Source of the DNA: Dehalococcoidia bacterium
GTDB taxonomy: Bacteria > Chloroflexota > Dehalococcoidia > Lucifugimonadales > UBA3495
NCBI GenBank assembly: GCA_022823505.1
Contig: JAJEIA010000106.1
Coordinates: 1 to 54,955 of the forward strand
DNA length: 54,955 nt
Direction: 5' to 3'
Every line of letters begins with the position of its first letter. Position 1 is the first letter of the stretch. The notes under the pieces are model-generated. The model saw only the letters and a list, made by a program, of their open reading frames with translations. It ran no database searches and was not told the origin of the DNA. Positions 5,081 through 6,978 of this stretch are shown in pieces. A program made the translations under genes and the position numbers.

Positions 5081-5300
5081 TCTCCAGCACGGCCCGGGTG
5101 CCGTCCTTGACTGCGGCTACCCGGAGGAGGACGCGCATCGCTTGGGCCACTCTTCCCTGGCGCCCGATGACCTTGCCCTTATCTTCGGGGGCTACTTCGA
5201 GGCGAATCACGATCTGGTCGCCTTCGTCAGATTCCGTAACCCGGACGGCTTCGGGATTGGACGTCAGCGACTGAGCGATGAACTCAATCAGCTCTTTCAT
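5073..5300 (-). CDS. khpA: KH-domain RNA-binding protein KhpA
   Basis: A 75-residue single KH domain protein (YlqC/KhpA). The nucleic-acid-binding GxxG loop is GRQG at residues 46-49 within GKVIGRQGRVAQAMR. KhpA forms a complex with KhpB/Jag and binds many RNAs in Gram-positive bacteria; the same role is inferred here. An upstream in-frame start exists, but MKELIEFI is the normal family start. It overlaps the end of rpsP by 17 nt and rimM by 8 nt, so the three genes form one translationally coupled operon. Confidence 0.93.
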   Translation of the reverse strand: MKELIEFIAQSLTSNPEAVRVTESDEGDQIVIRLEVAPEDKGKVIGRQGRVAQAMRVLLRVAAVKDGTRAVLEIV

Positions 5301-5553
5301 CCGAGTGGACCCTGCTGAAGATGTCATTCCGTTCAAAAATCTGCCGGACCGGGTCGGAGGGCTGGGCGCCCTTGCGCAACCAGTCGATCGCTCGGCTTTC
5401 GTCCAAGGTCACTGCCGGTGGGTCCGCCATGGGATCGTAGTGGCCAATGCCGTCGATGTACGCGCCATCCCGTGGGTTGCGCTTCTCGGTAACGACGATT
5501 CGGTAGTAGGGGCGGCCTTTTTTTCCTACGCGTCGAAGGCGAATCCGTAGCAT
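5284..5553 (-). CDS. rpsP: 30S ribosomal protein bS16
   Basis: An 89-residue bS16 that begins MLRIRLRRVGKKGRPYYRIV, with the family stretch NPRDGAYIDGIGHYDP and the C-terminal WLRKGAQPSDPVRQIF. CGGAG lies 5 nt before the ATG; the frame is open upstream, but family alignment and the ribosome-binding site fix the start. It is the first gene of rpsP-khpA-rimM. Two sigma70-type promoters and a structured leader lie upstream, suggesting both constitutive and leader-mediated control. Confidence 0.96.
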   Translation of the reverse strand: MLRIRLRRVGKKGRPYYRIVVTEKRNPRDGAYIDGIGHYDPMADPPAVTLDESRAIDWLRKGAQPSDPVRQIFERNDIFSRVHSDERAD

Positions 5554-5592
5554 CTGTACTCCGTGTTGCTGACTTGGTATACGTCGGATTCC

Positions 5593-5621
5593 AATGTATG
5601 GATTTGCTTCCCGTTTGTCAA
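5593..5621 (-). promoter_or_regulatory. Proximal rpsP promoter (P2)
   Basis: On the minus strand: TTGACA (5621-5616), a 17-nt spacer, TACATT (5598-5593, 4/6). The predicted start near 5585 gives a leader of about 32 nt before the rpsP ATG. Confidence 0.6.
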
Positions 5622-5682
5622 ACGAAATCCCGCGCCGTGAACGGGCAAACCGGGCGGAAAACGAGCGGCGCTGGAATCGAAA

Positions 5683-5700
5683 CGGGGCCACGAGGCCCCG
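5683..5700. other. Hairpin in rpsP leader
   Basis: A perfect 7-bp GC stem CGGGGCC/GGCCCCG with a 4-nt loop. On the minus strand it is followed by GTTTCGATT, which is too short a U tract for a confident terminator. It lies between the two rpsP promoters and could act as an attenuator or a leader-protein binding stem. Confidence 0.4.
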
Positions 5701-5734
5701 ATAAACCGCAAAACAGGGAGGAATTAAATTGATA

Positions 5735-5818
5735 TCGGGCCCAGACTGGACCTTTGGCTTGTCGCCCGATACTTCCCCAGGACCTCTGGGGCGACGGTAG
5801 ACACTGGTCTGGGCCCGA
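5735..5818. other. Long-range stem; candidate structured leader RNA
   Basis: A perfect 12-bp inverted repeat, TCGGGCCCAGAC (5735-5746) and GTCTGGGCCCGA (5807-5818), closes an 84-nt element. Inside are two competing hairpins that share bases: GTCGCCC/GGGCGAC (5761-5767 with 5789-5795) and CCCCAG/CTGGGG (5775-5780 with 5786-5791). Read as plus-strand RNA the long stem extends with two G-U pairs and a G-C; read as minus-strand RNA it lies in the leader between rpsP promoter P1 and the gene. It does not match SRP RNA, 6S RNA or tmRNA by eye. No coding explanation was found. Confidence 0.5.
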
Positions 5819-5854
5819 CTGACGGGCTAAATTCCCTTTTGAAAAGCGATGACG

Positions 5855-5926
5855 CTAAGAGGCGTTCACCCCGTCGTGTCCAGACTGGTGCCTACCATCG
5901 CCCCAGCATGTTAAACTGTGTTCCAT
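5855..5926 (-). CDS. Possible 23-codon leader ORF upstream of rpsP
   Basis: A short frame, ATG to TAG, encoding 23 residues (begins MEHSLTCWGD). It is preceded by AAAGGAGGTGAT, an essentially full complement of the 16S rRNA 3-prime end, with about 9 nt between GGAGG and the ATG. The RNA start predicted from promoter P1 lies about 40 nt upstream. The peptide has no recognisable family. The unusually perfect ribosome-binding site is the main evidence; it could instead mark a ribosome standby or regulatory site. An overlapping ATG 7 nt upstream would give a 13-codon frame but sits too close to the ribosome-binding site. Confidence 0.4.
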   Translation of the reverse strand: MEHSLTCWGDGRHQSGHDGVNAS

Positions 5927-5972
5927 TAGCCATCACCTCCTTTCTCAAAGTTCCGCACGAGCGGTTAGCCCT

Positions 5973-6001
5973 AATCTACAATCAGGAAATTCTATTGTCA
6001 A
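5973..6001 (-). promoter_or_regulatory. Distal rpsP promoter (P1)
   Basis: On the minus strand: TTGACA (6001-5996), a 17-nt spacer, TAGATT (5978-5973, 4/6). The predicted start is near 5966. The -35 box overlaps the TTG start assigned to the divergent fmt gene. On the plus strand TACAAT (5977-5982) in the same segment could serve as the fmt -10 box, so the two directions may compete. Confidence 0.6.
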
Positions 6002-6978
6002 CCCATCCCGCGCGCGAATCTGGTTACACGTTCACGCCGGATAATCCGCTACGCGTGGTCTTCATGGGGACCCCCCAGTTCGCCGTGCCAACGCTGGACG
6101 TTCTGGCTGGTGATCCCGGCGTAGCATTGGTGGCCGCGTACACTCCACCGGACCGGCGAAGCGGCCGCGGCCGGGTGATGGAGCCGTCCCCGGTCAAGGC
6201 CAGGGCCGAGGAACTCCGTGTCCCGGTTTTCCAGCCGCGCCGGCTGCGTGGTGAGGGCGCGGTGGCCGAGTTGGCGGCGTTGGACCCGGACATCATAGTG
6301 GTGGTCGCGTATGGTCTCCTGCTTCCCGCTGACGTTTTGCAGCTTCCCCGCTACGGTTGCCTGAACCTGCACCCCTCGTTGCTGCCGCGTCACCGGGGGC
6401 CTTCCCCGGTGCCCGGAGCCATTCTCGCCGGTGATGCCACCACGGGCATCACCCTGATGCTCCTGGACGAAGGGATGGACACGGGCCCGGTGATTGCGCA
6501 ACGCTCCCGGGAACTGCGCTCGGACGACAACGCGGACACCCTCACCGATGCGTTGTTCCGTGAAGGGGCGTCGCTGCTCCACGATACGCTTCCCAAGTGG
6601 GTGTCCGGACGCATGGAAGTCCGCCCGCAGGACGAAGCATTGGCCACCTACACCTCCAAAATGGACCGAACCGACGGCGTAGCCGATTGGGGCCAGCCGG
6701 CAGAGTTCCTCTGGCGTCAGCAACGTGCCTACACGCCCTGGCCGGGCTTGCATACCGCGTGGAATGGCAAGGGCATCAAGCTCCTGGATGTGGCACCTTC
6801 GTCCGGGCCCGCCGCGGAACCCGGGGCGGTAATCCGGGTGGACGGGGACATGCTGGCCGTGGGAACGGGCGACGGGCTGCTGGTCGTGTCGCGCCTGCAG
6901 CTGGCGGGCAAACAGGCTGCCAACGCCTCCGACTTCATCCACGGTTATCCTGACTTCGTCGGCGCCCGGCTGGGCTGA
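5995..6978 (+). CDS. fmt: Methionyl-tRNA formyltransferase
   Basis: Formylates initiator Met-tRNA using 10-formyl-tetrahydrofolate. The N-terminal domain shows VVFMGTPQFAVPTL, YGLLLP and LNLHPSLLPRHRG with the following DEGMDTG aspartate; the C-terminal OB-like domain carries the WPGLHTAWNGKGIKL region. With the TTG start it has 327 residues, normal for Fmt. The TTG is chosen because AGGAA lies 7-8 nt upstream. GTG at 6055 or ATG at 6064 would remove a roughly 20-residue N-terminal extension and cannot be excluded. It is divergent from rpsP with overlapping control elements. Translation genes cluster here (rpsP, rimM, fmt). Confidence 0.94.
   Translation: MSTHPARESGYTFTPDNPLRVVFMGTPQFAVPTLDVLAGDPGVALVAAYTPPDRRSGRGRVMEPSPVKARAEELRVPVFQPRRLRGEGAVAELAALDPDIIVVVAYGLLLPADVLQLPRYGCLNLHPSLLPRHRGPSPVPGAILAGDATTGITLMLLDEGMDTGPVIAQRSRELRSDDNADTLTDALFREGASLLHDTLPKWVSGRMEVRPQDEALATYTSKMDRTDGVADWGQPAEFLWRQQRAYTPWPGLHTAWNGKGIKLLDVAPSSGPAAEPGAVIRVDGDMLAVGTGDGLLVVSRLQLAGKQAANASDFIHGYPDFVGARLG

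Follow-up and report, generated by a model that had tools for sequence, protein, structure and literature searches.

A conserved RNA with a ribosome-binding site and two predicted mutually exclusive helices upstream of rpsP in Dehalococcoidia: an apparent gene for a small RNA

In the genome of a marine Dehalococcoidia bacterium, the gene rpsP, which encodes ribosomal protein bS16 (5284..5553, minus strand; PF00886, E 2.4e-22), is preceded by a stretch of DNA that contains promoter-like sites, a short open reading frame and a long-range stem. The question raised by this locus is whether the stretch is a regulatory leader of rpsP or encodes an RNA with a role of its own. It was noticed in a window of 54,955 nucleotides of contig JAJEIA010000106.1 (the window denotes this whole stretch, to which all coordinates refer), and the features described here lie on its minus strand. 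The initial annotation regarded the stretch as an rpsP leader, possibly acting by translation-coupled attenuation or by autoregulation through bS16 or KhpA. In this study, the locus was compared among related genomes and analyzed by folding. Lying between two housekeeping genes, the region resembles a small-RNA gene of a kind that has not been recorded, and the best reading, given with moderate confidence, is that of a lineage-specific, ribosome-gated two-state small RNA with a separate gene.

Upstream of the RNA lies the promoter-like site P1 (TTGACA-17-TAGATT, 5973..6001), and a second promoter-like site, P2 (TTGACA-17-TACATT, 5593..5621), stands before rpsP; both were located by motif scan and comparison. 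These sigma-70-like sites are the two promoters of the initial annotation, and their coordinates were confirmed on rechecking; across 5450-6150, they are the only promoter-like sites on either strand, compared with a mean of 0.4 in shuffled sequences. The leader ORF with an ideal ribosome-binding site was likewise confirmed: the site AAAGGAGGTGAT (5932..5943) precedes an ORF that sequence comparison places from the ATG at 5926 to the TAG at 5855 (5855..5926), with 23 codons and the stop. The ORF contains one side of the long-range stem, the 5' arm (5888..5905); the 3' arm was placed at 5787..5804 by alignment. This stem had been described as 12 bp closing 84 nt; the long-range stem is real, but it is longer, with 18 pairs (5905-5888 with 5804-5787) closing 83 nt. 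Within it lie segment A (GTCTGG...CGAC, 5873..5885; alignment), which forms the inner helix of a first state, and segment B (GTCGGGCCCAGAC, 5807..5819; alignment and folding), which can pair either with A in state 1 or with a segment C in state 2. After segment C (GTCTGGGCCCGAT, 5734..5746; alignment and folding) comes a T-rich stretch, which is only weakly developed in the window's genome. A GC hairpin with a T-rich tail, a second terminator-like site in the terminator scan, is present at 5683..5700, where it had been reported. The 306-nt leader has a minimum free energy (MFE) of -134.5 kcal/mol against a shuffle mean of -106.1 (sd 5.1, n=100; z -5.6).

The distribution of the RNA was determined by several searches. 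A nucleotide search found DNA matches in 49 of 99 genomes, the window's own included. The covariance-model search that had been suggested for this locus covered 250 genomes of the order and recovered the RNA in 53, again including the window's own, with one locus per positive genome; the same 53 were returned by model R1, built on the hairpin, and by the broader model R2, to which the ribosome site was added. The R1 matches comprise 46 of 50 genomes of the window's own family (f1) and four, one and two genomes of three other families of the same order (f15, f4 and f10, respectively), the last three figures being numbers of matches and not fractions of the family genomes searched. On the opposite strand of the window, R1 also gives a match, which is weaker (60.6 versus 114.3 bits), as expected of a near-palindrome. 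In samples of 393 genomes of the class and 400 of the phylum, searched with stricter filters than the order, the window's own genome was the single match in each case. An exact-pattern scan of 84,980 species genomes yielded 49 stretches, many of which repeat genomes already counted, with titles that all read Dehalococcoidia, SAR202, Chloroflexi or Chloroflexota; this pattern is blind to the f4 form. In these searches, the RNA was found in some families of one order of Dehalococcoidia/SAR202. Sequence comparisons were made with 52 of the 53 loci, of which 44 form the main f1 set; L045 (genome G014) was left out because its 5' arm reads N.

A known Rfam RNA was rejected as an identity for the region: Rfam release 15 gave no gathering match across the whole window, and a search of the region only returned three matches at chance level (E 5 to 6.6). 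A phage origin was also rejected, since there was no blastn match in the phage collection and the exact pattern was absent from viral contigs. No RNA of such a form was found in the literature by a search on titles and the openings of abstracts.

In state 1, each of the 16 core pairs of the outer, long-range stem is a standard pair in every one of the 52 sequences (832 of 832 cells), and two-sided changes occur at three positions. Compensatory changes in the stem, which had been named as a test of the proposal, are therefore present. Among the 44 f1 sequences, 99.8% of stem cells are paired, versus 30-42% when the partners are slid by 1-3 columns, and the stem covariation score is 0.112 versus 0.068 in shuffles, a value reached by none of 500; much of this score comes from the outermost pair, and kinship alone can lift related sequences above shuffles. 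Within f1, the counts of pairs with two-sided changes and of pair types were not above those of shuffles. The alignment continues the stem through an inner helix of GTCTGG/CCAGRC and CGAC/GTCG. When RNAalifold is run on the 44 f1 sequences, stem 1 is predicted, with a local helix in place of the inner CGAC/GTCG.

The site that precedes the ORF is a strong ribosome-binding site. The sequence AAAGGAGGTGAT (5943-5932) is complementary at 12 of 12 positions to the 3' end of the genome's own 16S rRNA (...GGATCACCTCCTTT), and an exact match to the 16S complement of at least 8 nt occurs in 50 of the 52 sequences; the two remaining sequences match over 7 and 6 nt. The conservation of the ORF and its ribosome site, another test named in the initial annotation, was borne out: ribosome site and ATG are present in 52 of 52 sequences, and the spacing from the ATG to the stem is 21-24 nt in all of them. 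One explanation that draws on this complementarity is that the RNA is a ribosome decoy, which would sequester free 30S subunits through its strong anti-16S site and in which the stem would serve only to stabilize the molecule. It is also in keeping with a decoy that, elsewhere in the window's genome (87% complete), the 12-mer occurs only opposite the 16S gene and in the six copies of one repeat. However, a decoy leaves the fixed stop, the alternatives of A, B and C, and codon 5 unexplained, and is regarded as very improbable. The repeat that carries the 12-mer is at least 90 nt long, and its copies lie at or near the ends of contigs C66, C78, C97, C128, C136 and C157 of the window's assembly (G000).

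The ORF itself is of constant length within f1, with 69 nt and a stop in 44 of 44 sequences (TAG in 31 and TAA in 13), and the stretch from the stop to segment B takes 12 different lengths in the same family. A gene that encodes a small protein and has structure in its 3' part would account for the fixed 23 codons. Against this stand the differences between families: the ORF has 23, 19-20, 20, 11 or 10 codons depending on the family, and the reading frame through the stem also differs. Furthermore, the entropies outside the stem are flat over codon positions 1, 2 and 3 (0.77, 0.76 and 0.67) and give no sign of selection on the peptide. Among the explanations considered, a small-protein gene is the one that we find hardest to credit, and a functional leader peptide was rejected on the same grounds, the flat entropies and the differences in frame between families; the conservation of the peptide, which had been suggested as a check, is not apparent. 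Because frame and length differ among families and the entropies are flat, passage of the ribosome into the stem, rather than the peptide, seems from these comparisons to be the conserved trait.

Codon 5 of the ORF (5914-5912) is a rare TTA, which 51 of the 52 sequences share; in a set of 32 long ORFs picked mechanically from the window, TTA accounts for 10 of 1235 leucine codons. The ORF has this single conserved TTA and no repeated codons for a regulating amino acid. With the usual footprint sizes, a ribosome at codon 5 would end approximately where the stem begins. The TTA may also be kept as an RNA motif. A second stretch resembling a ribosome site, GRGGTGA, lies within the ORF (5872-5866, minus strand) and is kept in the 44 f1 sequences and not in f15.

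The second state depends on a helix between segments B and C. In those sequences that do not belong to the main f1 set, C starts 29-53 nt past the stem. As segment B is common to both, the two states are mutually exclusive. In free MFE folds, stem 1 forms in 52 of 52 sequences and B:C in none, and stem 1 is also retained in 52 of 52 when the start site alone is blocked. When the ORF is blocked as by a translating ribosome, at least six B:C pairs form in 50 of 52 folds, which represent equilibrium minima and do not model folding during transcription; the two folds without B:C are those of L081 and L085. A B helix of at least eight pairs occurs in 46 of 52 real folds, compared with 36 of 1040 in which the 3' part was shuffled. 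In addition, the best-of-window B:C pairing is mostly 9-10 of 10 in real sequences and mostly 7-8 of 10 with shuffled 3' parts, a control that discriminates poorly. The translation-coupled action suggested in the initial annotation gains support, in the form of an RNA switch, from comparison and folding.

Covariation contributes less to this helix. Within f1 (n=44), no two-sided B:C change and nothing above shuffles was found, because the core of B and C hardly varies; one pair is open in 17 of 44 sequences and another in 29 of 44, and RNAalifold on these sequences does not predict B:C. In f15, B and C change in step at two positions, in three and four sequences, and three of the four f15 sequences pair TCGGGTTCG or TCGGGTCCG with CGGACCCGA or CGGGCCCGA in 10 of 10 pairs. 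These two-sided changes, all in f15, may represent one or a few events. Weaker pairing, with 7-8 of 10 pairs, is seen in L084 (7 of 10), L085 and L088, and f10 has additional B:C pairs outside the core. The predicted exclusive helices are supported by folding and, weakly, by covariation.

At the 5' side of the RNA, TTGACA is found 40-115 nt upstream of the ATG in 51 of 52 sequences, and a complete -35/-10 pattern in 45 of 52. At the 3' side, the region contains two terminator-like sites (5700-5683 and 5645-5629), which is not above chance when compared with shuffles (0.8, sd 1.0). Of the 44 f1 sequences, 42 have a T-rich tract with at least 4 T of 8 after C, as does L088, and none of the seven sequences of f15, f4 and f10 has one; this criterion is lax and is passed by 1559 of 4400 shuffles. 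A tract with at least 5 T of 8 in the 14 nt that follow C is present in 39 of the 44. In 13 of the 44, a local terminator hairpin lies no more than 80 nt past C. Among the seven f15, f4 and f10 loci, five have a terminator hairpin after C; none was found after C in the two f10 loci (L086 and L087) or in L088.

A mechanism can be proposed from these elements. A structured RNA of approximately 230-280 nt would be transcribed from its own promoter-like site P1 and would end, in most relatives, at a terminator-like sequence. Its very strong ribosome-binding site and short ORF lie near the 5' end, and translation of the ORF would carry the ribosome into the 5' arm of the 17-18-bp hairpin. With no ribosome moving through the ORF, state 1 would stand and B would be held; a ribosome that passes the rare TTA codon 5 would enter the stem, strip the 5' arm and release B, and the freed B could then pair with C to give state 2. 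In f1, where state 2 is mostly followed by the T-rich tract, the B:C helix would act as a terminator, so that translation would give a short RNA and lack of translation would give read-through. In f15 and f4, where C precedes a separate terminator hairpin, the switch would instead alter the shape or activity of the finished RNA. On such a mechanism, the RNA would read out the capacity for translation and would act on something other than its own neighbor.

The near-invariant stem sequence and the RNA's own promoter-like site would also be explained if the RNA had a structural role or bound a protein, as a 6S-like RNA or one of another kind, and its ribosome site and ORF took no part in regulation. 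6S RNA is a separate gene of approximately 200 nt with a long hairpin, and in its separate gene and long hairpin the present RNA resembles it; to our knowledge, however, 6S RNA has no conserved ribosome site or ORF, whereas both are conserved here. With the Rfam 6S model (RF00013), no 6S RNA was detected anywhere in the seven genomes searched (G003, G007, G011, G025, G052, G122 and that of the window; six of these are assembled into a single contig), so a diverged 6S RNA could hide at this locus. The model gives no match in the region either, and 6S RNA was rejected on this basis, though the model detects 6S in only five of 14 control genomes. Further points against a purely structural role are the presence of ribosome site and ATG in every sequence, the fixed ORF length in f1 and the existence of a second, exclusive helix, and this explanation is considered improbable. 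tmRNA (RF00023), which engages ribosomes and has a short ORF, as is proposed for the present RNA, was rejected: it has no match in the region and lies elsewhere, at C92:44012-44367, and tmRNA was found above the cut-off elsewhere in seven of seven genomes searched.

The remaining alternative is a cis-acting attenuation leader of rpsP-khpA-rimM, which would sense translation or bS16 and would have been relocated in a few relatives. The gene order in f1 accords with it. The RNA lies 5' of rpsP in 45 of 46 genomes, and the remaining locus ends before rpsP; a divergent fmt stands beside the RNA in 45 of 46, and khpA and rimM usually follow rpsP. Moreover, in the four f1 genomes without the RNA, rpsP is likewise missing from the assemblies. 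However, rpsP has a promoter-like site of its own past the RNA, between C and rpsP, in 41 of 44 f1 loci, versus 51 of 2200 shuffles. The exceptions are L011, L018 and L030, which have no promoter-like site between C and rpsP; because none was seen there, the RNA may also act as an rpsP leader in these three.

The other families also provide evidence against a leader. In six of the seven genomes of f15, f4 and f10, rpsP is certainly elsewhere, although the RNA keeps its full stem and ribosome site. In G122 and G063 (f15) and G052 (f4), the RNA and rpsP are approximately 1 to 2 Mb apart on the same chromosome; in G120 (f15) and in G058 and G095 (f10), rpsP is on a different contig, and the sequence downstream of the RNA, which does not contain it, extends for 3.0, 1.38 and 3.0 kb, respectively. 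In G124 (f15), the RNA lies 293 nt from the end of one of the contigs C45 and C20 and rpsP lies 268 nt from the end of the other, so the two may be neighbors; with G124 counted as possible, there are only seven genomes with the RNA away from rpsP. The claim of an rpsP leader thus holds for the position of the RNA in f1 and fails in six of the seven genomes of the other families, and autoregulation by bS16 or KhpA is not supported, given the occurrence of the same RNA apart from rpsP in those six. A leader of rpsP is considered rather unlikely as a general explanation.

The neighboring genes of the RNA are not constant among the f15, f4 and f10 loci. Downstream, the first large ORF to be met points toward the RNA in L083, L084, L085 and L087, four of the seven, and is co-directional in L081, where it lies behind a terminator hairpin, and in L086. 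In f4, the RNA is flanked by a divergent gene for a JAB protein and a convergent luciferase-like gene, and in f10 it is followed by a convergent gene for a BNR-repeat protein in one locus and by a co-directional glyoxalase-like gene in the other. Because rpsP is elsewhere, the neighbors differ and a terminator hairpin follows C in most of these loci, the RNA appears, as judged from sequence, to be a gene of its own at least in the f15, f4 and f10 loci apart from rpsP. As a separate observation, the f15 loci L081, L083 and L084 each have an opposite-strand CoA-transferase-like ORF downstream of the RNA. In L083 and L084 it is the ORF that faces the RNA, which we take to be CoA-transferase-like from its sequence; these two loci also have an ORF, presumably amidase-like, at a few kilobases or less from the RNA. 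An alpha/beta hydrolase gene on the same strand separates the RNA from the CoA-transferase-like ORF in L081.

Several known systems share parts of this arrangement. Like a trp-type attenuator, the RNA has a short 5' ORF and two predicted exclusive helices, the later of which is terminator-like in f1. Unlike it, the RNA contains no run of regulatory codons but one rare Leu codon, and shows no sign of peptide conservation; in terms of gene order, most f15, f4 and f10 loci have no co-directional gene directly downstream, and rpsP in f1 mostly has its own promoter-like site. In Sinorhizobium meliloti, rnTrpL is a trans-acting small RNA derived from an attenuator (PMC7298713); the terminated product of an attenuator can have a role as an independent RNA, as is proposed for the present one. 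A leader for S16 has been proposed in Flavobacteria, upstream of rpsP with rimM in the operon (PMC7247131), and this precedent could be cited for an rpsP leader in f1, where the position is the same, as could the possible adjacency in G124. The Flavobacteria leader nevertheless differs in belonging to another phylum and in its tie to rpsP, whereas the RNA described here has a ribosome site and an ORF, is mostly separated from rpsP by a promoter-like site, and also occurs apart from rpsP.

Because no ribosomal-protein gene lies near the RNA in some relatives, the RNA probably acts as an independent sensor of translation and not simply as the leader of a gene. A more specific version of this proposal, which is put forward only tentatively, is that the sensor is gated by one UUA: a ribosome waiting at codon 5 would keep state 1 and decoding would melt the stem to give state 2, which would make this an RNA class with ribosome movement as its input and tied to no neighboring gene. 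If the favored reading of a ribosome-gated small RNA is correct, the parts of an attenuator, namely a strong ribosome site, a short ORF and two exclusive helices, would here form a separate gene that does not regulate its neighbor, and a direct RNA read-out of translation would exist in uncultured marine and sponge-associated bacteria. The RNA would also provide a test case for attenuators turning into trans-acting RNAs, as one family has it beside rpsP and others do not.

A further observation concerns a single f1 locus. In L006 (genome G001), an insertion of approximately 170 nt that resembles a miniature inverted-repeat transposable element (MITE), with the inverted ends GTAACTGTTCAGA and TCTGAACAGTTAC, lies between the RNA and P2 of rpsP; it was not seen in the other leaders compared.
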